Shown in pieces: positions 8,904 through 31,568 of a DNA stretch of 64,000 bases. Below the pieces are notes generated by a model. That model had not been told where the DNA came from, made no database searches, and was given only the letters and a program-made list of their open reading frames with translations. The DNA comes from Arctopsyche grandis (Eukaryota; Arthropoda; Insecta; Trichoptera; Hydropsychidae), in assembly GCF_051622035.1 (NCBI RefSeq), contig NC_135360.1, forward strand, positions 24,131,206 to 24,195,205, read 5' to 3'. Made by a program: the position numbers and the translations under genes. The first letter of the stretch is position 1, and the number at the start of each line of letters is the position of its first letter.

Positions 8904-9396
8904 TGTAGAGATATAGCACGACTTGTGATATCACCTATTTCCCTCATCGAACTTAATCTGTACAAATGACATCATCGCGTCCTCTTCTCGTACAAGAAAG
9001 TTAGCCGTGGCCGAAATACTTCGTCCAGCTTACCCATAAAGGCGATTCGACTCGCTCCAGATACGCAATCACGATTACACGGGAAATCCCAAGGAGCTAC
9101 GCAACTACGCATCAAACATCGAACACAAAGGAAGACCTCGACCCCGTTGGAATCTTCCAGAACGTGATCTCACCAGCCCAGCTACGCGTTGCTCAAGCAA
9201 CACCTTTATAAACCTGTACATCGTCCCCAGATGCCAGTGAGCTTCAGGAACTCGACCTAGCTCGTTCCAGTGAATCCTTTACCTACTTCGCTGTACATAC
9301 AAATACACCTATATTAATCGAGTAATAAAGATCCTCTTCAAAATTCAACTGAATTTCCATAGGCTGGGAAACGGTCCAAAACCTTCAACCCCCCTA
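8904..9396 (+). mobile_element. LTR-like repeat family B, interrupted by a younger LTR element
   Basis: The repeat begins TGTAGAGATATAGCACG, resembling family A at its start and again at its end (CCATAGGCTGGGAAACGGT). Its middle is different, with CCTTTATAAACC and AATAAAGATCCTC as promoter- and poly(A)-like signals. The last bases (CCCCTA, then TA) continue at 12606 after the 9397-12599 insertion. ATTT flanks both outer ends, a probable 4-bp duplication. Confidence 0.6.
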
Positions 9397-10439
9397 TGGG
9401 AACTAGTCTTATTGTGAAGGTCTTCTTCACCACCAGTCCGCCATGTATTGTAGACAGATTCGTCTGTGTTCGGTATTAATACAACTATATGTTTAATGTG
9501 GTATTTATTTGGTAGTAACACGTATACACAAGTATGGTTAATTGTTGGTAAAAGTATGTCGTTCAGAGGTCTCTGGATGTGGTAGAGTGTCGCTGGCTCG
9601 GCATTCGGCTATGTCCGGCTAGTCTCTGGATACGGTAGAGTGTCGCTGGCTCGGCATTCGGCTATGTTCAGCAAGTCTCTGAATACGGCAGTGTGTTGCT
9701 GGCTCGTTGTTCGGCTGGTTGATCTTCCAAGTCCGTGTAGTGTAGTGGTGGCTGGTCAGGAGCTGTATGTCGACGCTTGCTGCTGTGGGTCGACTGGCGT
9801 TGTTTGGGTTGTACCTCCTTTTATAGTGTTTCTGGAATCGCCTGACCGATGGTGGTGGTTTGTTGATGCGTAAGAAAGGAATGCACTTTTGTCGAGGCGT
9901 AGAATTTTCTGGAATGATTGCTGGAAGTGGTTATTGATGCGTGCGAGCATTTAGTTGTTGATGCGTACAAGAGGAATGCACTTTTGTCGAGGCGTAGTAT
10001 TTTCTGGAATGCTTGATGGAAGTGGTTGTACGAGCATTTAGTTATTGATGCGTACAAGGGGAATTTGCTTTCGTCGAGGCGTAGTATTTTCTGGAATGCT
10101 TGGCGCTGTTCCGCTCGATGTATTTTGTTGTTGCGGAATATTCTCGAAGGTTTCGATGACGATGACGACGACGAGATTCCTACATGGCTCTCCGGTGAGT
10201 GTTAGCGATGTGTGTGATTTTGTGGGAATCTTGATGTGTTGGAGTCTATTGACTCGATGGCGTCGTTGTTTGTCCGGTTGTGCTGGAGAAAGTTGTCTCA
10301 ACAGCGGGTCTTGTGTTACATGCCGGTCCAAGTCTTGTTCTCTACCAGGTTGCTTATTTTGGGCGAGCTGCGTTGGTAGTGAAGGTTTGTGATGGCTTGG
10401 ATGGTGCTGTTGTGCAGGCTGCTGTGTTCTGCGTGGAGT

Positions 10440-10830
10440 CATTCGCGTGACTGTTTTGCTGGTTGTGCTGGAGTTAGTTGTCTCGGCAGCGGGTCTTGCG
10501 TGAAGAACGTTGGTTGACGAAGTGCGTTGAGTGCTGGTCTTCGTTGGTTGTGCTGGAGTTAGTTGTCTCGACAGCGGATCTTGCGTGAAGAACGTTGGTT
10601 GACGAAGTGCGTTGAGTGCTGGTCTTCGTTGGTTGTGCTGGAGTTAGTTGTCTCGACAGCGGATCTTGCGTGAAGAACGTTGGTTGACGAAGTGCGTTGA
10701 GTGCTGGTCTTCGTTGGTTGTGCTGGAGTTAGTTGTCTCGACAGCGGATCTTGCGTGAAGAACGTTGGTTGACGAAGTGCGTTGAGTGCTGGTCTTCGTT
10801 GGTTGTGCTGGAGTTGGATGTCTCGACAGC
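10440..10830. repeat. 85-bp tandem array inside the LTR element
   Basis: About four and a half copies of an 85-bp unit. The landmark GGATCTTGCGTGAAGAACG recurs at 10576, 10661 and 10746, and in a variant form (GGGTCTTGCG) near 10491. The unit length is not a multiple of three, so frames through it shift from copy to copy. It is unlikely to encode a conserved protein. Confidence 0.9.
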
Positions 10831-11144
10831 GGGATTTGTGTGGAGTAGCTGGTCCATATGTACTTTCACACCATGTTACTGTTTCGGTCGTTACAATGGT
10901 AGTGAAGGTTTGTGACGGTCTGGACGGTGCTGTTGTGCAGGCTGCGGCGTCCTGCATGGGCTCATCGAGGTGATGAATCATCGAAGGTGTGATGAGCGGT
11001 GCTGGCGGATCAACAGTAGTGGATCCATTTGGTTGTTGTCTCCGGGTTACGTCTTGTTGTGGCGAAAGCTGCGGAGTTGTTTGACATGGTCACTAGTTGT
11101 GGGGACATGTAGCGGACTGCGTTTGAAGTCTGCGTTGAGGGTTG

Positions 11145-11345
11145 CGTTGTAGACTGCGTTGTAGGCTGCGGTTGCGTGAAGTCTGCGGTTGCTATGTAGG
11201 CTGCGATGTGGGCTGCGATGTGGGCTGCGATGTAGGCTGCTATGTAGGCTGCGATGTGGGCTGCTATGTAGGCTGCGATGTGGGCTGCTATGTAGGCTGC
11301 GATGTGGGCTGCTATGTAGGCTGCGATGTGGGCTGCTATGAAGGC
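11145..11345. repeat. 12-bp tandem array inside the LTR element
   Basis: A run of units alternating GGCTGCGATGTG and GGCTGCTATGTA, about 15 copies, with degenerate versions at the left end. It forms part of a plus-strand reading frame rich in Gly and Cys (GCDVGCYV repeats). Given the element's minus-strand orientation, that frame is probably incidental. Confidence 0.85.
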
Positions 11346-11811
11346 TGCGTGGTTCTTAGTCGGGGGTCACCAGTTATGGTGAGGTTGGAAGTTGACTGCG
11401 CTGTGGGCTGCTTTGTTGACTGCTTTGAAGGCTGCGTGGCTCTTAGTCGGGGGTCACCAGGTATGGTGAGGTTGGAAGTTGACTGCGCTGTGGGCTGCTT
11501 TGTTGACTGCTTTGAAGGCTGCGTGGCTCTTAGTCGGGGGTCACCAGGTATGGTGAGGTTGGAAGTTGACTGCGCTGTGGGCTGCTTTGTTGACTGCTTT
11601 GAAGGCTGCGTGGCTCTTAGTCGGGGGTCACCAGGTATGGTGAGGTTGGAAGTTGACTGCGCTGTGGGCTGCTTTGTTGACTGCTTTGAAGGCTGCGTGG
11701 CTCTTAGTCGGGGGTCACCAGGTATGGTGAGGTTGGAAGTTGACTGCGCTGTGGGCTGCTTTGTTGACTGCTTTGAAGGCTGCGTGGCTCTTAGTCGGGG
11801 GTCACCAGGTA
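11345..11811. repeat. 87-bp tandem array carrying six primer-binding-site copies
   Basis: Five to six copies of an 87-bp unit (GTATGG recurs at 11461, 11548 and so on). Every unit contains GGGGGTCACCAG, the plus-strand view of the primer-binding-site-like TGGTGACCCCC. The last one sits 4 nt from the LTR at 11812. Both strands are open throughout because 87 is 29 codons: minus strand, repeats of IPGDPRLRATQPSKQ; plus strand, repeats of GCVALSRGSPGMVRL. These frames look like by-products of the array. Confidence 0.85.
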
Positions 11812-12607
11812 TGGGAACTAGTCTTATTGTGAAGGTCTTCTTCACCACCAGTCCGCCATGTATTGTAGACAGATTCGTCTGTGTTCGGTATTAATACAAC
11901 TATATGTTTAATGTGGTATTTATTTGGTAGTAACACGTATACACAAGTATGGTTAATTGTTGGTAAAAGTATGTCGTTCAGAGGTCTCTGGATGTGGTAG
12001 AGTGTCGCTGGCTCGGCATTCGGCTATGTCCGGCTAGTCTCTGGATACGGTAGAGTGTCGCTGGCTCGGCATTCGGCTATGTTCAGCAAGTCTCTGAATA
12101 CGGCAGTGTGTTGCTGGCTCGTTGTTCGGCTGGTTGATCTTCCAAGTCCGTGTAGTGTAGTGGTGGCTGGTCAGGAGCTGTATGTCGACGCTTGCTGCTG
12201 TGGGTCGACTGGCGTTGTTTGGGTTGTACCTCCTTTTATAGTGTTTCTGGAATCGCCTGACCGATGGTGGTGGTTTGTTGATGCGTAAGAAAGGAATGCA
12301 CTTTTGTCGAGGCGTAGAATTTTCTGGAATGATTGCTGGAAGTGGTTATTGATGCGTGCGAGCATTTAGTTGTTGATGCGTACAAGAGGAATGCACTTTT
12401 GTCGAGGCGTAGTATTTTCTGGAATGCTTGATGGAAGTGGTTGTACGAGCATTTAGTTATTGATGCGTACAAGGGGAATTTGCTTTCGTCGAGGCGTAGT
12501 ATTTTCTGGAATGCTTGGCGCTGTTCCGCTCGATGTATTTTGTTGTTGCGGAATATTCTCGAAGGTTTCGATGACGATGACGACGACGAGATTCCTACAC
12601 CCCTATA

Positions 12608-12905: not shown

Positions 12906-15551
12906 ATGCAGGGCGCTGCACGAGCGGTGGGCTGCGGCGGGTTGCGGCGGCTTCTCGCCAAGTCTGCTCTGAAGCCAGCCGTTTCCTCGGGCGCGGGAAC
13001 GGGAACGGGAACGACAATAGCGATCCGCAACCACGGGTATTTTTCCCCCAATCACCTCTTACATCACCGCATATCCATAACCTCACCAACATTTACTGCC
13101 TTATCGGGTTTCCGCATAAACATCTTCCTACTTCATTGTTGCTCGTCTTAAGGTGCGTACGCACCAAGCCAACGAACGGCCCACAGGCCAACTTTAAAAA
13201 CCAGTAGCGTACAAAATATCGAAATAAAAATTAAATTTAAAAATTGAAATTAAATATCAAAATTAAAACTATTATTATTATATTAAAATTAAATTCAAGT
13301 ATCAAAATAAAATTATAATCATTATATTTAAATTAAAATAAAATATTGAAAGTTAAAACAGAACATGCACAATTTAAATAAATTTTCGAGATTGACCTAA
13401 AATTAGATCATCAACAATCACATACAGGTAATCCTCGACTTAAGATGTTTTGACTTACGAAGATACGCACTAAGATCGAAAAAAAATCAAAGAATTATTA
13501 TTTTTACTTCCCCGTAAAGCACGGTTACTGAGAATATATCATGTATTAGTATGGGTGATCCAACGATTCTTGCTAACCCGGGGTGTTGTCGGTCACATCA
13601 AACAGATTTTTTTATTCTTCAATTGTTTCTCTCGTCGAAATAAATCAAGTAATTAAATCATTTCAGAGGTAAAATTTATCGGATAATGTGTGATTATTAA
13701 TTTTATTTCGACGAAAGAAAAAAAACCCTTTGACAAATCACCGACATCCGACACCGCGTTTTTTTATGAATTGTTTTTTTTTTATCGATCATCCAAGTGG
13801 AAATACAGTAACATCTCGTGACGACTTTAACAATATTTTTTTTCGCTCGTACGCAGAGAAATTATAATATTTCTCTGGTTTTAAATGCGGCATCGTCGTA
13901 ATTCAAAATATTGTTGTAATTCAAAACATCAACGATGATCTAATTTTAGCTCAATCTCGCTCTTTAGCTTGATTTTGATATTTAATTTCAATTTTAAAAT
14001 TTAATTTTTATTTCGATATTTTGTACGCTACTGCTGGTTATAAAGTTGGCCCAAAATCGTCGTTGGTTTAGTCCGTAAACACCATTATATGTATTAGAAT
14101 TATCCCCAGTACTTTCACATTTTTACAATTTGTATTTATTATTAATCGGTCATTCCAAAAGTTACAAGCTATTAACCGCGCCAAGTAAATCGATATCTTT
14201 TTACTTTATCTACTTATATATTTATTTATACAGGGCCGCCTAGAGGGAGCCAGGCTAAAGTTCCAGGGCCCGGGCTACTATAGGGGCCCCGTGTCGGAAA
14301 TCGCACCTGTTAATCGTTACCTTTCTTATTCAATTATTATAAAAAATAACAACCAACATATAGGTATTTTTTTAATAGTTCGGATAGATCTTTCGCATAT
14401 TAAAAATATATCTATAAGATATTTTTTTTAATTTGTTATAGGGCCCGGAATTATTTTTCCCAGGGCTCGGGATTCCTTTCGGCGGCCGTGAACTTATACA
14501 TACCAAGTATGAAATTGTGATCAATTTTTACTTTGTCTATGTACGTAGCATAGATGAAGTTTTCTGATCATATAAAATTTCCACCTCGAGATTTCGACTG
14601 ATTTGAACTAAAAATCGATCACTAGTCACGTTTGCATGGTTTAGAAAAAATATCTACTTTGGAGATAATTTGAATACCGTTAGTCCTATTACACTGAAAA
14701 TTGCCATCAATTCATGAAATCATTACGATGTAATTTTTAGGTATGGAAAGTGGTAAAAGTTTTCCTTTTTTTTTTGTTTTGGATCAAATTCTCTTAAACC
14801 ACTCAACAGATTTTTTTACATGTATGATAAATCGCATAAACTAGTATTTTTTAAATATTTATACATACCTCAACTGGGAAGTGTGTAGTACTTTTATTCT
14901 AGAGAATCAAAGTTTTTGATATATTTTTTTCTGAAACGTTTCAGTGTATTGTACTGAAATTTCATATCAAGACGTTTAAGCTCAATATCAAGTAATATAT
15001 AAAATTTATGGAAGATATGCTAACCAGAAGTGGCAATTTCTCTAGTACAATTTGTATTTTTCAAAATCGTAACCAATTCTAGAAAAATTGTGTTGAAATG
15101 AATTATTTGTTGACATTTCGCTTTGTCGGAATCGTGGGGTATTTTTTAATATCTTATACCATTTATGGAAAAACTATCTTTTATCTGGGAATTCATCAGT
15201 ACTATGTCCAATTCATCAGTACTAGCAGAGTAAAACTAAATAATTTTGATTACAGAACATGGTCGTATCGTACAGCACCCGCTCTACCAGCTGCCACAAA
15301 TAGATATGTTGCATCGGCTATGGGAGGAATAATGTGGTGGTGGATCTTGTGGCACTTGTGGACGGAACCTGAACATTTAACAGTAATTTACAGTTTTATT
15401 GAAATTTTTTTGTTTTTATATCGATTTATTTAATCAATGTTTGTCGTAGGGAGAGTTTCCAAGAGTCTATCCAGAATTGTGGACGGATGAAGAATTAGGC
15501 ATACCTCCAGACTCAGAAGGAATTGGGGGCAGAACACAAGTCTACTATTAA
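12906..15551 (+). CDS. NDUFB2: NADH dehydrogenase 1 beta subcomplex subunit 2 (complex I accessory subunit)
   Basis: This is a single-pass accessory subunit of mitochondrial complex I, in the membrane arm at the inner membrane. Exons 12906-13036, 15256-15382 and 15450-15551 join in phase to give 119 aa. The N-terminal 40 residues are Arg/Ala/Gly-rich with few acidic residues, as expected of a mitochondrial targeting segment. Residues about 67-79 hold the family's Trp-rich membrane helix (GGIMWWWILWHLW). The tail has the family signature WTDEELGIPPD (about 97-107). The first exon is clearly GC-richer than the rest, and the start at 12906 is the only ATG upstream of the presequence in that frame. 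AATAAA follows at 15629. The 2.2-kb first intron is packed with repeats. Identity is firm. Confidence 0.93.
13152..14083. mobile_element. Inverted-repeat element in NDUFB2 intron 1
   Basis: About 930 bp with long inverted ends. The left end begins GGTGCGTACGCACCAAGCC, and the right end read inward is GGTGTTTACGGACTAAACC. The similarity continues about 110 bp inward through GTACAAAATATCGAAATAAA. No transposase is visible. Two truncated copies of the right-hand part lie in tandem at 24955-25483. Target duplication not resolved; class unknown. Confidence 0.65.
14233..14492. mobile_element. Short hAT-like MITE
   Basis: Starts CAGGGCCGCCTAGAGGG and ends CGGCGGCCGTG, inverted GC-rich ends around AT-rich DNA. 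Candidate 8-bp flanks ATTTATAC and ACTTATAC agree at 7 of 8 bases. Ends of the CAGGGCCG type are common in hAT-derived MITEs. Non-coding. Confidence 0.45.
14560..15090. repeat. Degenerate AT-rich interspersed repeat in NDUFB2 intron 1
   Basis: Resembles the repeat material at 16810-17130 and 28400-29450. It has recurring phrases of the type AAATTTCAGT...GTTTCTGAGA and short GAAGTGG / ACTTCCGG motifs. No coding capacity or clear termini. Confidence 0.35.
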
Positions 15552-15909
15552 TTTCGTTTAAAAAGACTTCATCCAATTTTCTGTAATATGTTATTTCAAT
15601 TATCTTAAAGTTTAATTATTAAAGTGTAAATAAAAAGTTTAGATGTTTAGAAATTTTTATTTTTCCTTAATTATTAAATCAGTTGTGATTTCAATAATAA
15701 AAAAATTCAACCTTATTACTATTATATCTATTCCAGAAACATATAACAAAGAATATCACAGTTAAAATTAGCATAATATAACAATTTTTTTCCCTTACTT
15801 TTGAGCTCCCATTAGAATGCAATATGCAAGGGTTGCTTAATGTAAAATAAAAAATAAAATTGCATATTTTATTTGAACGTAACTTTTCCATTTTACGTAA
15901 TGTTGAATT

Positions 15910-18900
15910 TCATGATTTGAAGATTACTTTTTTAACTTCTTCTGCAGCATCTTGTATGCCAAGTTTCAGTAGTAGTTTATATAAATCATCCACAGACACA
16001 TTTTGCTCCATCTGTAGTAAATTGAAGCTGAATAAATATAGCATATTTTATGATAAAAGTAACTAAAAACTTATTAACTGACCTCAATGCTATTTAACAG
16101 TATAACGCTTGGACTGTTTTTATCCTCACAGACAGAAATCATCGACTGACATCCTAATTCTTTAGCAACTTCTCTCCATTTTCCAGATTTATCAAGCAAT
16201 TTCGAAACGCTGATGATCGTCTTTTTATCCAAAAAATCATTATCTTCAATCTAAAAAAAGATTTTAATAAATTCTTAAAACACTATTATTAAATATACAT
16301 GCATGTGTTTTTTTACATATGATATATGATTACCTTAATGATGGGCGTATCATCGAGATTATTTTCTTGCACATGTTTTTTTATTACTTCTGCAATCTGA
16401 AACACAACATATTTGAATTATATAGTGACTAATATTAATAACACGGGTAGTTAATATACATAATTAATAAAATTTAAAATTACCTTGGGATTTGCACTTT
16501 GTGTAGCCATATTCAATGCCGAAGTTCCATTGAATTTTATGAATGGATTTGCCTTTAAAATGAGTACAATAAGTCAGTAAACAAATGTATGTAGAAAAAT
16601 AATTTTGTGAAAGATAAAATAATAAATAGTATTACCCCATGAATCAGAAGGTGTCGACAAATTTCAGGTGCATTTTTATTTTCTGAAACACAAGCCAAAT
16701 GAAGAGCAGTAGCACCTCCTAAAGTGCATGCATTTACAGATACCTGAAAAAAAATATTTAAAATAGATTTAGATTAAGACTTTATTTCAAAAGATAGCTA
16801 AAATGACTAACGGAGGAAAATCATACATTTTGGATACTACTTCCAGTTTCTAACTAAAACATTACCACTTCTGAGATATTACATACATTAAGAATATAAA
16901 TAAAAATTTTCAATTCGATAAGTTCAGTGGTTCCAAAATCATTGTAGTAACAGCAGTGAATGAAAACCGCCTCTGAATAACAGTATTTTTGAAGTGCCAC
17001 TTCTTGTTCATTAAATTTGCTTCTTTTTTATTTATTTACGTGATATTGATACAAGGATTATGCTGTAATTTTCGTGTAAAGATGACACGCTTTTAAAGGG
17101 TACAAAAAAATGGAAGAAAAAGCGAGCAAGATCTTTTATACTTGATATTACGCTGATGTTTGTATGTAAATAAATTTCTGTTCAATAAATCGAACAGTTT
17201 CAGAGAAAAACGTCAACACCTCGAACAACCAGAGCAAAAATACTGGTTGAGAAAAAATCTAAAATTTAACAAATTTGCAAAGGTGTCATTCAGCGCAATC
17301 CATCAAGCAATTTAAGAAATAGTCCGGTTTATAACAACAATTGACTAATATTTAAGAAATAAAAATGTTGGAATATAGCACGACTTGTGCTATTACGAAT
17401 CAAAACCAGTGATCTCATCATCGATCCTGAACAAACATGCATAACTCAAGGGCAACGTCTCCTTTGACCATTCCAGAGAGAGAGTTCATCGCTCGATCGT
17501 AAAACGAATGAAACCCAACAGTGATGTCATCAGGAAACTGTAACACGTGTCCTTAAAAGTCGTTTACACGTGGTACACGAACGCATTCTCAAATGAACGA
17601 CGTCCTGGCGCTGACCCCATAGCTATAAAACACGCGCCCCGACAACAGGTCAACACGTGTCCTGGAAACGAAGACAAAGCATCTGCACACGGCACGCTTC
17701 AAGCCAGAACGTATATAAAGCGACGCACCAGCTCCCAAAACCAGAGTGAACCTCTAAAGTTCAACCAGCTCACTTCCCCAAACTCAACCTCTTCGTACAT
17801 ACAATAACTATTGTAACAATTGAACAAAAATAAACGATCCTCTTCCAAACTCAACTGAGTTTCCATAGGCCGGGAAACGGTCGAAACCTTAAACCCGCCA
17901 TATAAAAATATTTATCAATTATTTAATTTGAATTTTATCAAGACTATAAAACTTCATCTATCGATTGTTTTCGTATACAAATTAAAATCAAATGTGATAT
18001 TGAGGAAAAGACTTACAGGGGTGTTTTCAATAACAAACTTCACTAAATCCATATTTCCTCTGTCAACTGCCAAGTGCAGAATTGTTCGCTGGTCGTTTTT
18101 AGTTTTGATTTCAGGATTTGCTTTTGCTGATAAAAGTTGAGAAATGCTTATTTTAGAAACACATATAAAAGCCAGATGCAGTGGGGTGTATCCATCTAAA
18201 ATAAAATAAAAATTTGTTGAATTGATGAAAAAACAAGCACGTAACATACAAATGGTATTGGTATGCATTGATAGTATTTTTAATACAACTATAGTTATAG
18301 AAAAATATTGTGAATACTGACCACAATTGGTAATATCCAAATCCAAGGCAGGCATAGTATTCGTCTTTACCTTATTGTATGCGAGTAATTGGGAAACACA
18401 CTCAAAGTTACCATTCATAATGCACAAATGCATTGCAGTATTTCCATTTTCGTCTTGAATGTTTGGATTGCAACCTGTGTTGTTAACAATGAGAGCACAT
18501 TGTTGTAAAATATAAACGAAGAACGAACTAACTATATAAATTGACGAATATGTATGCTTTAACCTCCAGATAGTAACAAATCAATGAATGCTGTTCTATA
18601 AAAGTTTACTGCTCTATGTAATGCAGTTTCTCCCTGTCGGTTCACACTGTTCATATTATCGTCCAATTTGTGCTGCTGCATAAAATTAATGATGGCATTC
18701 AAAAGGTCCGTTTCATCGATAGTAACCAACATATGAAGAAAACTAAAAATATGAAACACAATCGTTTTATATATGTTATATGCTTACGTACATGTCTACA
18801 TATATGTATGTATATATCTACCTATACATGCATGTAACATTAAATTTCAAATAGATACAATAAATAAATATTCACACTATTAGTTTTACGATTGATTACA

Positions 18901-21900
18901 ATTATTAATTCTAATTTAAAAATGGTTGTGGCTATTTGCAGGTACTATATCTGCGAATTATTGACTATTTGCAGGTATTATATTTTCGACGGGCGTAAAG
19001 CCTTCTGCGCATGCCCGTGAACTGTCACTGTCAGCGTGTTTACTGTTAAAATTTTGTTGTAAACCTCTTAAAATTTAGTTCGAACTCGTAAAGTGACGTA
19101 GAGTAAAAAATATAATCCAAATTAGTTAATATTATTAATTGTTAGAAAATTATTATCATATACAACGTATAATACCTACATACAGGTTCAAGCCGCAAAC
19201 TAGCTAAATTATATAAATCTTTTATAATAACGTGTGAAATTTATTTGCCTCATGTACATATAATGAACGATTGATTAAACAAGTCTAGCATACATTAAAT
19301 GTAAGAAATTATATTCGGATTATAAGTTCACGCGCATGCGCAGAAGGCTTTGCGCCTGTCGCAGATATAGTACCTGCAAATAGCCACAACCTTTAAAAAA
19401 TGTAAGATACATATAATATTATATGTTAGTATACACACATATATGAATTTTAAATAGTTTAATACTATACTACTGGTGTGACTGAAATTATTTTGCCTTT
19501 GGATAGAAAAATAAAACATATGGTGGGAAATAGAAATATACATTTATATATATGGCCTAATGCATTTTTATGAACTCAATTCGGAATATTAGAATTTAAT
19601 TTATTAATTAAATTTCATACAGTAAGGGTAATATATATTACATATTATACTTATTGTATGAAATTTACAGTGCTAGTGCAAATTTAATATATACATATGA
19701 TATTTTATATAATTCGTTATTATAATACATTGTGCATAAAGTTAAACTGAATTTATCATGCTGAAAGTTTTAATGATATTTTATGCCAAACCTTGAAATC
19801 TTCTTTCTTTTATTTAGTCTTGCATATATAAGACTATTTAGTCTTGCACGTGTATAGAATATTCTTATAAAATGAAAATCATAATTTTGGAATTAATACT
19901 CGATACATCATCACAAATATTATGTACAATATGTATGTATACATAGTCTTAAATTTTAAATTAATTTACACACTAACAACCAACACCCACTCTATAATCT
20001 TTTGTGCCTATGTAATACATACTTTTCCCCATTGGATAATCCATCATCGAGAATTTTTATTAAATTTTCCGTAACGATTTTGTCCAATGACTCTTTTTTG
20101 GAAAATAAATTGAGCTGAAAGTTGTACAACACGATTAATTAATAAAAAATTAGATCAACTTTTAATACTAATAAATTAATTAAAATTGTTGGTACCTTTA
20201 ATAAATTTTCAACATCCTTTTTAGGATAAATATTCATGCATTTTTTAATTATAATTTTAGATGTTTCGATATTCTGTTTTCTCGCAGCGTCATAGCATTC
20301 CTATCGTTAAAAGGGAAAAAACATTAAATAATTCATAAAATTTGTTCAATAATTAATTATTAAGAAATATATTTGTATATACATTTTTGGTATTGGTTTG
20401 TTGTTTTTTCGAATTCTGACTTTGTCTACTCGGAGCATCTTTTACAACATCAGAGAAAAATATTTGAGGATCAATAATGCACGCAGTAGCTTCATTCATA
20501 TCTATTTTATCAGATTGGTGATATGTAATGAAAAGAATCAACATAATAATATCAATTATATAAAAAATGAAAAACTTATCGTAAATTCGATTCGACAAAC
20601 TCACTTTTGGTACAATCAGCTAAAAAGTTTTCAAGGTCAAATGAATTGTAATTTTGATCACTTGAGTCGTCATTTTTAAAGGGATTCACAACATTGTGTT
20701 GGCTTCTGATGGGGGGTAAAGGCGGGTTTGGAATATTTGGATTCAAATATTCATTCATATGCATCTAAATATAATAAGAAAAATACAATTTAAAGTAATT
20801 CATGTGTCAATAAATCTTAATGAAGTGTGTGTGTAACTATAATACATATACTCACATTGGAATGATTTAAATTCGTTACCGTCAGTGGTACATCCATATT
20901 TGGAGCGTCCAATAAATAAGGAGAGAACTCTTTAGAAGACAAAAAGGTTGATGATAAATCATCAACAATACGCCGTTTTTTGCTTTGGCGTGGCATTACC
21001 TTTGAAAAAAAAAATGCAATGAAAATATAAAATAATCGATTCATAAAAGAAATTATTAATTGAAAAACTTACTTTGTACCGAAATGGTATTTCATCTGAG
21101 GTGGCTCTATCTTTGGGTCTATACAGTTCAATATAAACATCTACGTCCTGAGTTATATTCAAATTGCGATATGCAGGTGTTCTTCAAAATAAAAATATGA
21201 TTAATTGTTTTATATGAAATAAATGGGTCTACCTCAAGGGCCCGAATGTGAAACGCCCGAAAACGCAAATATCGGAAGGCAAAGATCGAAAATCCAAAGA
21301 TCTTAAGTCGAAAGGTCAAAAAAAAATTATGGTACATGGTAAACGGTACATACTCACGTACATACTCACTTAATTTGCGCGAGCAGGATACAACAGGAAC
21401 AAGAGGAACAGGCTTTTCCTCCCGTATTCTACGCGTGCACATTAATACGGGAGGAAAAGCCTGTTCCTGTTGTATCCTGCTCGCGAAAATTAAGTGAGTA
21501 TGTACCGTTTACCATGCACCCTTTTTTTATCTTTCGACTTAAGATCTTTCGATTTTCGATCTTTGCCTTCCGATATTTGCGTTTTCGGGCGTTTCACATT
21601 CGGGCTCGTGGCGGAGACCGGAAATAAATATATTTTTTGTATTATAAAAAAAAACTTACTTGAACACTATGCCAAATTGATGATGCACATCAAGTTCTGT
21701 AAAATTGGCATAGTCTTCCCATACTCTTACATCATTCACAACTTCGAAAAACTTTATTTTTATATTTTCTAAAAAAAACACATGTTTAACATTATGTATG
21801 TATTCATTATCAGAAAAATTTCATAATGAATCTTTTCAATTAAACATACTTTTGTTGACTTTCTCGACAAACATAAATACGGTATCGCCACCGTTACAAG

Positions 21901-24900
21901 AACCAGAAGTTTTGCTAATGTTAGTAATTTTCAACTGACAAGTTTCAGCACTTTCTGAAAGTAAATCACAGGGTAACATATATTTTCGCCATTTTTTGCT
22001 TTAATTATATATTATACGTATATTTGAAAAATCTTTTTACTTGAATTGTCGATTGAATCAGAATATATAGGTTCGCAGATCAATTGTTTATTCTCATCAT
22101 ACGCAGCGAATTCTAAACATGCCGAGTTTAAATTGATATTCCGAGCTTCCATTTCACACATTTTTCGCAACTAAAAAATATATATTAACATTCAAATAAA
22201 TTTTTTAAAAATAGAAAGTTCCTTAAAAATAAATGAACAAACTTTAAACTCTTCATCTTTTGACATTGAAGACATATTAGCTTTCTTCTTCAATTTAAGT
22301 AGTTCTTCAGCAATAGACTTTTTACCAGTAAATAATATGGCCATATTTTGGAATCTGAAAATTTACATACAGACATAAAGGAGAGTTTAAATATAAGAAA
22401 GATTAATTATAAAATTAATATAATTTAAATTTATTCGCTTAAATATCATTCATAACGATTTAAATTGAATATAATAAAAAATATATAAAAATGGACGCGA
22501 TGTATGTTTGTTTGTGGGTATGTGCGGTGGATCGACAAGTATGGAGATTTCAAAAAAACAAATTTTAGAATATCAGGAGTATATGTTGTGTCTGGTATAG
22601 ATATTTAATAAAATAAATAAACGCGAACGTAAATTAATTCACTGGACCACTTAACGTTTGATCACTTATAGCATTTCTATTAATACGTGCGCGCGCGCCT
22701 ATAAATTACCTTACATTATGTTTATATATAACTATATTTTAATTCGTGTATCAATTCCTTTCCGAAACCACCCGTTGAAATCAATGGGCCCAACACTAGT
22801 TGCAATTTAATGAACGTTCTGTTAAAATCCCAATCGGAATAAGGAACCCATCCCAAATTAATACAACTGAATCATACTTAGCAATATATTTGTTGTCAGA
22901 ACTGACGTCGACATCAACTGGACCATCATCTTCATCATCCCCTTTCCATATGACTAAACGATGTGGATGAACTTCATGACGTTCATTGTTTTGAACAAGG
23001 GTACATGAGATCGTAGCACTTCCTGAATGATTCACAAGCTGTTAAAGCAGAAACGTTATTTTATTATGCTATTATTTTCGAAATTATTTATAAAGATACA
23101 TACATAATTATAAAATAAAACATTTAACAACCTGAACTGTCGGGTACGATTTTTTTCTTGACCGCCCTGAAAGACAACCATGCGTTCCAGACATTTCACT
23201 CTTGTATCGAAAGCGGAATTTTGTTGTTGGCTGATCAATGATTTTTAAATAAGGTTTTCTAGTCACTAAAATGATAAAATTGTTATTTATATTAATTAAA
23301 TATGTATTTAATAGTATAATGTATACTAGTAATATAATGAAGTTTGTATACCAGTGGTGGCCACGGGAGCCATTTTTGAGCGGACTTTATATTTAGGGCG
23401 TGAACTTTTTTTTTCGACTAATTGAGGACGAATACCAGTCAAGAAATTGATATTATTCTCACATCTTTTGATGGAGAATGGAAAGAAAAGGAAAGGTTCA
23501 CGTCCAAAATATAAACTTCGCCTAAAAATGGCTCCTATGGCCACCACTGTTGTATACACAAGTGCTTCCCAAATTGGGGGGTCGCGACCCCCTGGGGGCC
23601 GTAGGATTTCTCGCGGGGGCCGTGAAAATATTCAATAGAAAGTACAAATATTCATTTATGAATATTTTTCCACATTACATATTTAGGGAATGTATATATT
23701 TAAGGAAATATTTCCCAAACTTGAATGAGGATGAAAGGAACAATTGGATAAGAACACCATTTGCCTAGTCCTTAAAATATGATCATATTACGTGGACAGC
23801 CCAAGAAAAGTTGATCGATATCAGATCAGATAATTTACTTGAAGTGGAATTTAATGAAAAAAGTATTTCAGAATTTTGTTTAAGGCGACAGCAAGAATAT
23901 CCTGCTATTGGAAAAGAAGCCCTGGTAACTCTTATTCCTTTCGCGAGTACGTACCTATGCGAAACAGCATTTTCGTCATTACTTATATTAAAAAATAAGC
24001 AAAGATCATGCCTTTCCACGGAGACTTTGGAAGATGATTAGCGATTTTGTTATGTTAAAACATGCGACCTCATCTATCGCATTAAATTGTTTCATGTGTG
24101 TATAGATTTTATATTAGAAAAGTGATTTTAAGCAAGTTCCTATAATTTTGTACTGAATATAAATATGTGTATTATAATTGTAATAATTACTTTAAACCTA
24201 AAAATAATTACTTTAAGCCAAATAAACCTTTTAACTAGAAAAAAAATTTTTTTAGAGGCCGCAAATTAATTATTTCAAATTTAGGGGGTCGCGACATGAA
24301 AGTAATTGGGAAGCACTGGTATACACTGTTGTAAACTTATTTTCCTTCATTACTAATAAAGCATATAAACCTCTTGGATTCCTACTCCGCTCAACTAAAC
24401 CCTTTAATGATCCTCATGTACTTAAATTACTTTATTTTTCCCTTGTATCTGGTTACCTTTTTGTATATCCCATATTAATTGTATTGAAAAAGCCCAACTA
24501 AAATTTATCAAATCCTTACGCTACCGTTTTCTTATCTACGCCCATACTACTGTTCCTGATATTTTAAAACTCCTATCCTTTAACAATCCTTCTGTCAGGC
24601 GTCAACTCACTGATTCTACATTCCCTTTTAACCTCCTTAATGGTTTCCTTGATTGTCCCGATTTACCGAGTAAAGTTGGTTTCAGGATCCCAGTTAGGTA
24701 TTTTAGACACGTTGCACTCCATTCACTTGATCCTTTCAAAACGAATTCCCTAAAATGTTCCTATCTACAGCGTGTTTATTGTATGTTTAACGGGGAGCTG
24801 AATGACGTTGATCTATTCGGTATTTTCTTGCATCAATTCAGGACTGCCATCGGGAGAGTTTTGATTGATTGATCCATTTATATTTCTATTATATAATCTT

Positions 24901-25875
24901 TATCCAATATTATATCACTGAATGCACTGTTCTATTTATTTCATCGACGGCGAAACACAGTAGTGTATCGTGACGACTTATAAGAAACAATAACAAGGTT
25001 TTTTTCGCTCGTAATTATAATATTTCTCTGGTTGTAATTCAAAACATTGTTGTAATTCAAAACATCAACGATGATCTAATTTTAGCTCAATCTCGCTCGT
25101 TAGCTTAATTTTGATATTTAATTTCAATTTTTTAATTTAATTTTTATTTCGATATTTTGTACGCTACTGGTTTTAAAAGTTGGCCCAAAATCGTCGTTGG
25201 TTAAATATTTCCGAAGGGGGAAACACAGTAGTTATCGTGACGACTTATAAGAAACAATAACAAGGTTGTTTTCGTTCGTAATTATAATATTTCTCTGGTT
25301 GTAATGCGTATCGTCGTAATTCAAAACATCAACGATGATCTAATTTTAGCTCAATCTCGCTCGTTAGCTTAATTTTGATATTTGATTTCAATTTTTTTAT
25401 TTAATTTTATTTCGATATTTTGTACGCTACTGGTTTTAAAAGTTGGCCCAAAATCGTCGTTGGTTTGGTGCGTACGGACCATTAGTCATGTTTTAGTTTT
25501 TATTCTTTTCTTTTTCATTTGTTTGTCCCTATGTACCATTATATTTAATTTGTAAAAATCTATATTTGGATGTTATTTTGTTACATTTATTTTTATGCCT
25601 TTCTACTTCTGTTGTCTGTTGATTTTTCAATAAATAAATAAATAAATGCAGTACTCACTTCTTGTATTTTGATAATACATGTTGGTTCCAATTGTATTAT
25701 CAGGAAGATTATCTTCTTGCGGTACTTGTTGAGCAGGGGGAGACATTGTCATAGAATTCGGTGATAATAAAGATTCAGGAGACATAGAAAAACTGCAATC
25801 ACCCATAGGTATGAAGCTGTATTGTTCAAACATGTCATCGTAAACAATGTCACCAAACTTCTCAGGGGACTCCAT
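15910..25875 (-). CDS. Rel: Relish-type NF-kB precursor: Rel homology, ankyrin repeats, death-like domain
   Basis: This is an immune transcription factor of the IMD/NF-kB class. The N-terminal Rel part binds kB DNA and the ankyrin part holds it in the cytoplasm until cleavage. Twenty-one exons join in phase to 905 aa: 25875-25659, 23265-23132, 23038-22878, 22354-22243, 22170-22041, 21954-21850, 21768-21660, 21181-21073, 20999-20856, 20764-20605, 20501-20383, 20300-20196, 20114-20023, 18742-18564, 18474-18322, 18195-18017, 16743-16636, 16552-16484, 16396-16334, 16250-16083, 16011-15910. Layout: Ser/Pro-rich start (1-72); Rel N domain (about 76-215) with contact loop RFRYKSEMSGTHG and FQNMAILFTGKK; dimerisation domain (about 240-360); nuclear signal RQSKKRR (363-369); linker (370-500); ankyrin repeats (about 565-790, for example GETALHRAV, GNTAMHLCI, GYTPLHLAF); death-like domain (about 817-905). 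An ATG at 25875 follows a splice acceptor, so a 5' UTR exon lies upstream. No frameshift found. Confidence 0.9.
16810..17365 (+). repeat. Repeat R, copy 2, with related upstream repeat, in Relish intron
   Basis: From about 16810 to 17130 this matches the degenerate repeat at 28640-28925 (CTACTTCC, TTCAGTGG, GAAGATGACAC-like landmarks). From 17150 it matches repeat R at 3880-4115, ending with TTATAACAACAATTGACTAA just before the family A LTR. Non-coding. Confidence 0.6.
17366..17904 (+). mobile_element. LTR-like repeat family A, copy 2, in Relish intron
   Basis: Starts TGTTGGAATATAGCACG and ends GCCATATA, collinear with 4133-4677 over its length. AAAA lies on both sides, a weak 4-bp duplication. 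AATAAACGATCCTC near 17828 is the likely poly(A) signal. It lies antisense to Relish, between the exons at 18017 and 16743. Confidence 0.6.
18924..19391. mobile_element. Foldback MITE in Relish intron
   Basis: 468 bp with inverted ends of about 90 bp. The left end reads GGTTGTGGCTATTTGCAGG and the right end is its complement. Both arms include TATCTGCGA and GCCTTCTGCGCATGC. The left arm has an internal partial duplication. Flanks TTTAAAAAT and TTTAAAAAAT suggest a 9-bp target duplication. No coding sequence. Confidence 0.7.
21225..21620. mobile_element. Foldback element, copy 2, 9-bp target duplication, in Relish intron
   Basis: 396 bp, near-perfect palindrome related to 5586-5946, with the same GGGTCTAC...GGAGACCG ends. 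Shared arm sequences include CGCAAATATCGGAAGGCAAA and GGAGGAAAAGCCTGTTCC. GAAATAAAT flanks both sides (21216-21224, 21621-21629). It lies between the Relish exons at 21660 and 21181. The arms contain extra short insertions relative to copy 1. Confidence 0.8.
23560..24318 (+). mobile_element. Internally deleted hAT element with transposase C-terminal remnant
   Basis: 759 bp with ends AAGTGCTTCCCAAATTGGGG and (read inward) CAGTGCTTCCCAATTACTTT. GTATACAC flanks both sides exactly (23552-23559, 24319-24326), the 8-bp duplication of hAT elements. Two short plus-strand frames (about 23650-23770 and 23811-24041) resemble ZBED5/FAM200-type hAT transposases: NLNEDERNNWIRTPFA, then the hATC dimerisation segment ALVTLIPFASTYLCETAFSS. 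They are separated by a stop, so this is a dead copy. It lies in the first Relish coding intron. Confidence 0.85.
24330..25648 (+). mobile_element. LINE reverse-transcriptase fragment, 5'-truncated and decayed
   Basis: Plus-strand frames, broken by stops, resemble the C-terminal part of a non-LTR reverse transcriptase (NKAYKPLGFLLRSTKPFND, then LKLLYFSLV). The fragment ends in a short AATA-repeat tail (25630-25647) just beside the donor of the first Relish coding exon. It is interrupted at about 24955-25483 by two tandem partial copies of the inverted-repeat element seen at 13152-14083. Confidence 0.65.
24955..25483. repeat. Two tandem truncated copies of the 13152-14083 element
   Basis: Each copy runs from a CACAGTAGT-TATCGTGACGA region, through AACATCAACGATGATCTAAT, to GTTGGCCCAAAATCGTCGTT. 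They match about 13800-14080. The second copy keeps the terminal GGTGCGTACGGACC. They are inserted within the LINE fragment. Confidence 0.65.
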
Positions 25876-26225
25876 CAAAACGCTGCAACAAACAATAATA
25901 TATGTATGACCTCGGAGAATACATTATGCAGTACAGAAGTAGCGTTATTTCTCCTTGTGTGACAAAAGTTACTCGTGAATTGTTATTAAGAATAGAATCA
26001 AAACAATGAGGAAACGCATAGTAATAGACAAATGCTTGTTGAATAGATAAAAAAGCCATTATAATTCTGTGAATGCTAATTCATGTTAATGTGAAAGTTA
26101 TTTTAAACACTGAAGCATACATTTTTTATAGATCGACAGTGGACTTGTTAATCTTTTTGATCCATAGACCGGTTCGGTTCGTATGTTGGAAGTATTGTAC
26201 AAATGAATATTTACTATACGACTCT

Positions 26226-26254
26226 GGGACTTCCCCGACGAATGGGGATTCCCC
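26226..26254. promoter_or_regulatory. Pair of kB motifs upstream of Relish
   Basis: GGGACTTCCCC (26226-26236) and GGGGATTCCCC (26244-26254) are separated by 7 bp. Both fit the NF-kB consensus GGGRNNYYCC, and the second is palindromic around its centre. They lie about 350-380 bp upstream of the Relish start codon and about 100 bp upstream, in the gene's direction, of a minus-strand TATAAAAAA (26130-26122). The arrangement suggests Rel-factor control of Relish itself. The transcription start is not established, so the sites may be in the promoter or the first intron. Confidence 0.6.
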
Positions 26255-26259
26255 AACTA

Positions 26260-28400
26260 GTAAAATAAATGATAATCATATACAAACAAGAATTCTAGTA
26301 CGATTGTTTTTATATGTGTATGAATTTACATATCTAACTGAAAAAAATGAGTCAACTTTGACCATTGCAAGATGATTAGAGCTATTTATGTATATGTATA
26401 TGTTAATATGAGAATTTTTGTGAAATGCTTTAATAATTTTATATATTTTTGTCAGAAATATTTATATTTATATATTTATTATTGTGGGTGCAGAGTAAAT
26501 TAATGAGTTTATTGCTTATTCTAGTATATCTGTGAACATTATTTTAGAAAAGTTGACTTTAAGTTGGGTTTTTCAAGTTTACGGATAGAAAAACACAAAA
26601 ACTAGACAAATGTTGATTTAAAAATCAAAGATTTGAAATTGAAAAGTCCATTGCGTGACTATACGTATGTAGATGTACTGCTAATTTATTATAAAATAAA
26701 CGTAGTTTATGTAAATAATAAAGATTAAATTGTCTACATGATTGTATGCATGTTGATTCTTTATATGCTATTGTAGAAATTTGTAATATTTTTCTGTAAA
26801 CGTAATAAAATTATTTGTAGGAATAGAAATCAATATGGGGAAAATAAATTTATTTGAAATATGAAACATTGCATCGGTTTCCTGTTAGTCTGACAAATTA
26901 AATTATGTTGAATTCATTTATACAACGCTATATAAATAATTTTATTGTTTTTATGTCATAAATTGATATGTATTGGAATTTAACAAATAAGGGTTAACAA
27001 AACAAAACAAAATTACATGTATAAAATGGAAAATTTGCACATTTTATAAGTAGCATGTATAAAATGGATATGAATACATATATGCACATACATACATACG
27101 TTAGTGTTCGCATTCAACATAATATACTTCTTTTCCAGTAATGAATAGAAATTCATTACTATAGAAATAGCTGTGATGAATATTGAGCGGTATTGTTAAA
27201 TTACTAAGAATTTAGCTATTTAAATAAGCGAATGTTTTTTACATGAGAAATTTTCAAAGAAAAACATTGTTTTTTGTAACAAATTGTATTTTGTGACTAA
27301 TTCATACAATTAACGTAAACATATCAATCATTCACCGAGTCGAAAGATGAGTAGTTGGTAAATATGTACAATATAAATGCAATATACAAATAAGCATAGT
27401 AAAATTTTGATTGAATTCTATGTATATGTTTGTAAAAAGAAAATAGAATTTTTTTTTCTGACAGTCAATCCTGTAGATTGTAAAATTAGTTGGATTATTT
27501 GATTTGATAAAAATGTTATTAAGATTAATATCACGAATGTACTGAAATAAGTACTCTTCGATCACATTTCAGTCATCACTTATCTTTTTTAAACAAAATA
27601 TCCAGCCATTTATCTTTCACGCGTAACATTTCGCATCAATTAATTCGAAATACGTTCATATCGAGTTCAAGATATCCAATACACTTCAAGAAATATTGAG
27701 TTTACAGGTGTCAAAATGAAATCAACGATGCTCAAAATTACAAAATTGAACTTAAATAAAATTGTAAGACGTAAACGAATTCCTAGAATTCTCAACAGTT
27801 AATGTACTACGTATGTACATATGTATAGTAAATATGTATATACTGCGAATAAAAAATAGTCTGATTAATTTACATATAAATGCATAAAACATGATATCAC
27901 AAACGTTTACATATATTTATCACTTTTTTTGAAGATTTTTTAGGATTTCGAGTTTTCTTAAATTTACGAGATACCGGGTTTGTTTGCCAATGCAAAATAT
28001 AGATATATTAAAGTCTACATACATGCATATTATGTATATTCATCCATACACTGTATTCATTCGTTCAATAAAAAATGTGGATTTTAAAGTTAAAATATAA
28101 GAACCCTGTATCATTACTGATACCTTTCTTGCTCTGGATATTCACCGTTAACTGCTAGCAATGTATTCGTTTATTGGCAATTGGCGTTAATCCAAATGTA
28201 GGGCTGCCAGGTGTCCCGGTATTCCGGGATTGTCCTGGTTTCGTGTTTCTGGTTCCGGCGTCGAGGAGAGACCTTTTGGGGCAGTTATAAGTATCGATTT
28301 CAGATAAACTGCTTGCTGATAACGACAACTATCATTGCTCAGAAATACCGAGTCCCTCCTAAATTAAGATTTTCCTTGAAATAAATAAATTATTTTGCCA
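26260..28400. other. AT-rich intergenic DNA, no gene recognised
   Basis: Upstream of Relish. It contains TATG/TACA microsatellite stretches (for example 27055-27105) and no frame with recognisable similarity. A short GC-rich patch at 28200-28290 (CCCGGTATTCCGGGAT) looks like the edge of a MITE but has no partner I could find. Confidence 0.5.
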
Positions 28401-29450
28401 ATATGAATTAAACATACATACACGTTCACACATACCGGTTATGAGTATTTTCGATACAAATTGAGCGCAAATGTATGGAAACTAGCACAAGACAAAAGTT
28501 CTAATTCGGGTTGTCGGATTTTGTTCAAAAATTTTTTTTTACTTAAAATCACTATCAGTATTATTCACATCAAGTATCAAGAAAATAAAAATAATTTAAA
28601 AGGTCAAAATAAAATAATTAAATATTGTTTAAAAAAAATACTACTTCCGGTTTACGAATTCTAACCAAAACCTTATCAGCTCTAAGTTATTACATAAAGA
28701 ATACAAATATAAATTTTCAGCTTGATACGTTCAGTGGTGTGGAAACAATCGTGGTCACAACATTTTTGACTTTTCTACGAGGAAAAAATCCCATTTCCGG
28801 TTCATTAAATTTAGTGATTTTTTATTTTTTATTTTCATCACAGATACAAGACTTGAGTGATACTTGAATTTTTTCGTGAAGACGACACATGTTTAAGGGG
28901 TCAAAAAAAATTGTGGAAGCAAAATCGAACAAGAGTAAACTGCCACTTGCGGTTGACGGATGCTTATCAAATTTCATACATAACTTGGTATTAAGCTTAT
29001 ACTTCTAGATATGAAATTTCAGTTCAATAAACCTAAAGGTTTCTGAGAACATAAAAAATCTCGTTTTTCTAGAGTAAAAGTACTTCTTCCGGTTCTGGTA
29101 AAAATATTCAAAAAATATTAGGGCATAAAATTTATAATTTCTATTACATGTAAAAAAATTTCAGTCTGATTCGTTTAGCGGTTTGGGAGATAAATTAATT
29201 CAAAAACTGAAAAAAAAAAAGAGGACAACTATAAGGGGAGGTACCATTTTCGGTCAATTTGAAAATTTACGTCGTATCGATTAGAATTTCAGTAAACGAT
29301 AGTTTCAATAAACGAAGTCTTAGTTCGATAGAACTAACGGTGTTCAAAACAAAATACACTGACACACACATTTTTTCGAGATCATGAAAACGTAATCAGT
29401 GATCGATTCTGAGTTAGAATCAGTCAAAATCTCGAATTAGAATTTTCGCA
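28400..29450. repeat. Degenerate interspersed repeat, about 1 kb
   Basis: Several diverged units with recurring phrases ACTTCCGGTT, TTCAGT.CGAT..GTTCAGTGG and GTTTCTGAGAAC. Parts match 16810-17200 and 14640-15080. The short open frames are not supported by any similarity. Class unknown. Confidence 0.45.
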
Positions 29451-29565
29451 TGAACACAAAACTTCATTTATTGTTACTACGTACATAGATATGTGAAGTA
29501 AATAAGTGAAAGGTAAAAGAGGTATGTAAAAAATGCAAAAGTCGTGATTTCGGATGATATATGAG

Positions 29566-30479: not shown

Positions 30480-31150
30480 TAATTTGTTTACTCTGGTACA
30501 ATTAGTTTCATCAGATTGTTCCGAACAATGTATGGAATTCAATGAAAAAGATCATCTCGAGAGGGGAAATGCAGATAAGGCGATAACCTTGAGCGTGTGC
30601 AACTTTCGAGTTGCACTGCAGCACAAATATAACAACCAGTTATATTATAGAAATCTTGAAAGGCAGTGTGACGCAATCCTTCGCCAAGGAGGTAAAATGT
30701 ATACGGAAAATGTTGAAAAGCAAGCGTACGCGCAAAGTGAATGCACATAGAGAAATAATATGTACATGTGTACTCACTCACCTATCGGTCGAAATTTGTA
30801 ACTAAATACTGATAAGAAAGCCGAGAGAGCCTTTCGGCTATTTCCGTTTCGATAGCCGATCCACGACCAACTTCCAGGAACTGTTTGTCAACAAAAAGTG
30901 ATAACGTAACATTCGTTAACAGTGATAAAGTAATAACGAAACACTCGCAAAGACTAACGAAAAGGCGACACGACCAATCCCGACGACAGCCTCTGCACCA
31001 CTGCTTTTGTTCTGGGATTCCCGGCAAATTCCGATGAATCACCTTCACTGCTTATCTGCACAAACAACTGCCTCGGTTACAACGACGTGCGTAGCTGCAA
31101 TTTAATAAACTTGCAGATTTTCCTCTTCGCCAATTTGAAAGGATGTAAAG
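30480..31150. other. Unassigned, less AT-rich block with a kB-like motif
   Basis: This block is distinctly richer in GC than its neighbours and shows no similarity to the repeats in this window. Frames of 88 aa exist on both strands (30484-30750 plus, 30782-31048 minus) but neither has a recognisable domain. A kB-like GGGATTCCCG lies at 31014-31023. It could be a distal promoter or UTR exon of Relish, an unrelated small gene, or an older element; I cannot choose. Confidence 0.25.
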
Positions 31151-31568
31151 TCACCAAAGCGAACTTTGGTGTTACTATGCTGATGAGTGATGAGGAATCC
31201 ATTTATATATGTACTTTTTTTTATTTAAGGTTGTCACTTTTTCATTAGGAAACCATAGACGTCCATATTAATCAGGGTTGCCACCGTATTTAAGTCTCAT
31301 ATATATGTATCTTTCGGGACGCCCAAATGTCCTGATTTACTATTTTTTTTTTAGATTTGTAAGAACGTTCAGTCAAGGATTTGAAATCGTGTTAGCATGA
31401 ATTATTAATAAATTGTCAATGCTTAGTACAAACTGCAGCGATATTCAAATACATACTGACACTTTTGATATTCAACACCGACAACATGCACGCTTTGTCT
31501 CTCTTACACTTTTTGGAAAACTGTGTGTGGAAAGGAGACAAAAAGTATTTATCAAGCATTGGTTAGGG

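Follow-up and report, generated by a model that had tools for sequence, protein, structure and literature searches.

A pair of κB motifs upstream of the Relish start codon in Arctopsyche grandis as a plausible autoregulatory element

Autoregulation of NF-κB genes is a principle already known in vertebrates. According to the accessible part of PMC13072840, the RelB promoter carries NF-κB sites to which RelB itself binds, and a title in the reference list of the same paper concerns NFKB2 autoregulation. In Drosophila, infection-induced response elements contain a few nested κB-like sites linked to GATA targets, as described in the accessible part of PMC3849502. In Manduca, the mRNA of Rel2 was induced by microbes significantly but not highly (available text of PMC4742911, section 5). 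The term “Relish promoter” stands in the available excerpts for promoter binding by Relish (PMC6563256), for H3K27ac at the Relish promoter (PMC13063524) and for a reporter built on the cloned Relish promoter and used in HEK293T cells (PMC10929803). Nothing on Relish autoregulation turned up in the accessible portions of PMC6683665, PMC13144350, PMC6027307, PMC5740927, PMC3573115 and PMC12805896, and a literature search that reached few subscription papers yielded no report in which Relish acts on its own gene through κB sites there.

We analysed a 64-kb stretch of Arctopsyche grandis DNA (the window) which carries a Relish gene with two κB sites upstream. It is similar to vertebrate RELB and NFKB2 in that κB sites lie beside an NF-κB gene, whereas here the gene is an insect Relish and the putative element is probably intronic. 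The elements of Drosophila antimicrobial peptide genes likewise combine κB and GATA sites, whereas here the combination lies beside the gene that encodes the regulator, and its GATA site matches the consensus only weakly. The tandem κB sites of HIV lie a few base pairs apart, and κB site 2 of our pair is what we take to be the 11-bp H-2K κB (KBF1) word; these belong to different genes and organisms, and the likeness is one of short words only.

The Relish gene and the κB pair

The following features define the locus.

15910-25882, minus strand: Relish gene, 21 coding exons, ATG at 25875, 905 aa, complete from start to stop
26226-26236, plus strand: κB site 1, GGGACTTCCCC (GGGGAAGTCCC on the gene strand), exact match to GGGRNWTYCCC
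26244-26254, no strand assigned: κB site 2, GGGGATTCCCC (GGGGAATCCCC on the gene strand), exact match to GGGRNWTYCCC and near-palindrome
26130-26122, minus strand: TATAAAAAA, TATA-like octamer, 95 bp from the near edge of the pair

The minus-strand gene is identified as Relish by its Rel, ankyrin and death domains, as the preliminary description had proposed. All 20 introns are GT-AG. Pfam models matched PF00554 (RHD_DNA_bind, 2.8e-32), PF16179 (RHD_dimer, 4.3e-32), ankyrin PF00023 (5.8e-29) and Death (1.1e-07), and the Rel domains and the C-terminal ankyrin repeats lie in one frame, as in class I (p105-like) NF-κB proteins. The best solved relatives of residues 1-369 were NF-κB p50/p105, followed by p52/p100. 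The recognition loop FRFRYKSEMSGTHG aligns with FRFRYVAEG-PSHG of p50, and the p50 histidine, a residue that favours GGGGA half-sites, is kept.

The two κB sites are the only exact GGGRNWTYCCC matches in the window (n=2). They are separated by 7 bp (GACGAAT) and the whole segment is 29 bp. The near edge of the pair lies 351 bp from the Relish ATG and 344 bp from the start-codon exon, on its upstream side. These measurements agree with the preliminary description, which had given two good NF-κB sites in a 29-bp segment about 0.36 kb upstream of the Relish start and about 100 bp upstream of TATAAAAAA; the spacing of 7 bp in its text was correct, and the 8 bp in its title was off by one.

The published consensus for Relish is GGGGATTYYY (PMC9496462, from a figure legend). 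It is matched by GGGGATTCCC inside κB site 2, and the only other match in the window is GGGGATTTCT at 59574 (minus strand). κB site 1 fits GGGRNWYYCC, not the Relish consensus, and reads as a generic NF-κB match only. Broader κB patterns brought in two more sites in the window, at 9081 (10 bp) and at 31014 (9 bp), and GGG-N3-5-CCC had eight matches, three of which were not κB-like.

Two further consensus matches lie on the far side of the pair from the gene.

26270-26275, plus strand: GATA-factor consensus TGATAA, 15 bp from κB site 2
26348-26354, no strand assigned: TGAGTCA, AP-1 consensus, 93 bp from κB site 2

Both matches were obtained by scanning 18 patterns and are suggestive only. WGATAR has 172 matches in the window, which makes the GATA match weak alone, and TGASTCA is not common, occurring at five places in 64 kb, 26348 among them. 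The arrangement of infection-induced response elements, κB sites grouped together with a GATA site close by, was found here, weakly so given how common GATA matches are. The same scan gave no C/EBP or heat-shock element within 25880-26600, and one STAT-like TTCNNNGAA at 26065, against an expectation of 0.53 per 700 bp with both strands counted.

Several other features were observed around the gene. A G+C-rich tandem-repeat block at 9561-12517 has periods of 12/24, 53, 85 and 87, and its 53-bp and 87-bp arrays each occur twice, about 2.4 kb apart. A further κB/Dorsal-like site, GGGAAATCCC, lies directly before the block at 9080-9091. Diverged repeat copies (66-67% identical) were found upstream of Relish (28638-29489), in a Relish intron (16834-17131) and downstream (14536-15053). 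Plus-strand frames at 15257-15560 (AMGGIMWWWILWHLWTEPEHLT and GEFPRVYPELWTDEELGIPPDSEGIGGRTQVYY) converge on Relish and resemble NDUFB2 of complex I. On the plus strand, 54328-54726 holds a portion of a dynein heavy chain gene (Pfam Dynein_AAA_lid), and further frames at about 47-62 kb appeared dynein-like by eye only; the frame at 47160-47555 had no Pfam match. Rfam gave no match in the window at gathering scores.

Rarity of the pair in the window and in the genome

For a stretch of 64 kb, the number of GGGRNWTYCCC matches expected from four Markov models was 0.15-0.31, and 0.17-0.18 with training on the whole window, versus two seen. With one mismatch allowed, the window had 12 matches versus 6.0 expected, and 3 of 100 shuffles reached 12. 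A close pair was defined as non-overlapping matches on either strand with starts 9-30 bp apart. Among 3000 order-2 simulated 64-kb windows, such a pair of the 11-bp motif appeared in none, of GGGRNWYYCC in two and of GGG-N3-5-CCC in ten, with the motif class chosen after the sites had been seen.

In the genome (475.7 Mb, 189 contigs), GGGACTTCCCC-N5-12-GGGGATTCCCC was found once, and GGGRNWTYCCC pairs 1-30 bp apart were found at five distinct places (7 rows), the Relish pair included; these counts cover same-orientation pairs only and may be lower bounds. Markov rates predict only 0.04-0.17 such pairs genome-wide. It means that real DNA yields κB pairs more often than the models do, so rarity is better judged by the count in the genome. 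If the five places are complete, one would fall by chance 5 kb or less from the Relish ATG about once in 10,000 cases, again with the motif class chosen after the sites had been seen. The earlier statement that a chance pair is very unlikely holds by this count as well as by simulation. The pattern expected of a κB-autoregulated NF-κB gene, high-quality sites at its own locus that are rarer than chance, was therefore found here, and the κB motif pair is real and non-random and lies at a sensible place. A reversed-pattern control matched much more often than the real pattern (303 and 375 matches). Our guess is that this excess comes from a repeat family; taken in this way the control is unusable as a null, and it was counted neither way.

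The other four listed pair places were examined with flanks of about 10 kb in both directions, where 79 frames of at least 90 aa were considered, six by Pfam and the rest by eye, and no evident immune gene was seen. Of the six, one was a secretin-family GPCR carrying a GPS motif and another its GPS-bearing neighbour; two were C2H2 zinc-finger frames, one had an I-set match below the curated cut-off and one had no match. Some frames around these places resemble retroelements by eye. So the pair alone is no marker of immune genes here.

Another listed κB-like pair, GGGAATTTCCCC...GGGGAAATTCCC (L006 9977-9991 continuing into L007 27-69), is followed, after about 0.54 kb, by the main frame of the secretin-type GPCR gene with the GPS motif, a gene adjoined by a GPS-bearing relative.

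Searches for further copies gave no second copy of 25883-28000 within the window (blastn with low-complexity filtering and an E-value limit of 1e-3). In a contig collection not meant for insects, the 287-aa Rel region gave 16 pattern matches of which none was confirmed, and the 29-bp pattern had no match in viral contigs, also from a collection not meant for insects.

Position of the pair relative to a candidate first exon

Four features bear on where Relish transcription would begin.

25862-26059, minus strand: 65-codon upstream frame with ATG at 26059 (context ATAATGG), overlapping the Relish start
25883-25902, minus strand: acceptor-like tatattattgtttgttgcag preceding the start-codon exon, whose first base is 25882
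30782-31181, minus strand: stretch picked by eye as a candidate for the promoter area and non-coding exon 1 of Relish, with an arbitrary 5' limit
31014-31022, no strand assigned: third κB-like site of 9 bp, GGGATTCCC (GGGAATCCC on the gene strand), within the candidate exon 1 or promoter area

The pair could be a proximal element of a Relish promoter that directly precedes the start-codon exon; this promoter could be the sole one of the gene or an internal, inducible one. The transcript would then begin at about 26200-26100 and perhaps be spliced from a weak donor (e.g. 26120) to 25882. κB sites near the transcription start are usual in insect immune genes, TATAAAAAA is close by, a TCAKTY initiator-like match is present at 26201, and donor-like sites lie near the pair at 26120 (score 5.5) and 25972 (score 4.5). 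Against this, TATA-like octamers are common, with 207 TATAWAWR matches in 64 kb and six (some overlapping) on the minus strand in 25880-26600; TCAKTY had no match at the expected distance from TATAAAAAA, and the nearby donors are weak. An unspliced leader from TATAAAAAA would hold four ATGs (26084, 26059, 26019 and 25924). The frame from 26059 has a stop ending at 25862, past the Relish ATG, and the context of the Relish ATG, TTTTGATGG, is weaker than that of the 26059 ATG. A TATA box together with a properly spaced initiator and a translatable leader, which would make up a TATA-driven proximal promoter, was thus not found if the leader is unspliced, and TATAAAAAA appears to be weak promoter evidence. 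The preliminary description had read the region as a promoter; the Relish identity and the good NF-κB sites stand, but the TATA promoter anatomy lacks support, given the common TATA and the upstream ATGs, and a promoter position of the pair is probably wrong. We regard a proximal promoter as rather unlikely.

The common TATA, the overlapping upstream frame and the acceptor-like sequence at the start-codon exon make it more likely that the pair is in intron 1 than that it is TATA-proximal. A passable acceptor, ttattgtttgttgcag, sits seven bases before the Relish ATG. This acceptor, at 25883, has a score of 3.1, inside the leave-one-out range of the 20 other acceptors of the gene (-6.1 to 12.9), and ranks 57th of 429 AG sites from 36.5 to 25.6 kb. 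With this moderate score the start-codon exon looks like exon 2.

The candidate exon 1 ends in the donor TAG/GTGAGTGAG, with the first intron base at 30781; its score of 8.0 is the 12th best among GT sites between 36.5 and 25.9 kb. The stretch 30782-31181 has a GC content of 0.43 versus 0.33 for the window, and one ATG per 400 nt versus a mean of 6.9. Only 1.9% of windows had an ATG count as low, and 1.2% of 165 GC-matched, overlapping windows. From these properties we infer a plausible Relish first exon, and we have moderate confidence that the κB pair would sit in an intron 1 of about 4.9 kb.

The upstream neighbour is a plus-strand 3-hydroxyacyl-CoA dehydrogenase-like gene (PF02737, 37818-38270). 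Its first exon reads from 37543, and TATATAAAAGG lies about 40 bp before. We also considered the 31-kb stretch as the promoter of this neighbour, which is less likely; since the neighbour has its own first exon and TATA at about 37.5 kb, the stretch more likely belongs to Relish.

Proposed autoregulation and its alternatives

Because the gene is Relish, the sites are good and one of them fits the Relish consensus, autoregulation is the natural reading, and it appears plausible. We lean slightly to the view that the 29-bp pair is a Relish-bound autoregulatory element, probably an intron-1 enhancer acting on a promoter at about 31 kb. Immune signalling would lead to cleavage of Relish, and the N-terminal Relish dimers would bind κB site 2 and, less certainly, site 1. 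The bound dimers would raise Relish transcription and so refill the precursor consumed by cleavage. The pair would act as an enhancer within intron 1 on the main promoter near 31 kb, which itself bears a κB-like site. What the sequence shows is the motif pair and how rare it is, that the gene is Relish, and that an upstream frame overlaps its start; we infer the binding, the direction of the effect, the feedback and the first exon at about 31 kb. Such regulatory logic is of an ordinary kind.

The sites might instead serve chiefly Dorsal/Dif of the Toll pathway, which would then cross-regulate Relish, or a κB-binding zinc-finger protein of the Schnurri/HIVEP type, with activation or repression of Relish as the outcome. 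HIVEP proteins bind vertebrate sites resembling κB site 2, and the generic character of κB site 1 would suit another factor too, but κB site 2 contains the Relish consensus, and we consider this reading improbable. It is quite improbable that the pair is a product of chance, two κB-like words binding little or nothing in neutral intronic or intergenic DNA: the four other listed genome pairs without an evident immune gene nearby, the motif class set after the fact and the modest one-mismatch excess speak for chance, whereas none of the 3000 simulations gave such a pair and the genome-wide count makes one near Relish so rare.

The least probable of the readings considered is that Relish has two κB-equipped starts, a distal one at about 31 kb that has one κB-like site, and an inducible intron-1 promoter driven through the pair. 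If it were true, GATA and AP-1 inputs might act there as well, and feedback would alter the 5' leader besides the amount of transcript. The overlapping frame would be retained in feedback transcripts that stay unspliced and would make their translation poor, which would be a brake on runaway feedback.

We return to the pair as a candidate Relish-bound autoregulatory element, probably within intron 1. If real, it would offer a compact and testable insect example of an NF-κB gene directly controlled by its own product. It would help to account for infection-induced Relish mRNA, and it would define a 29-bp target for mutation.
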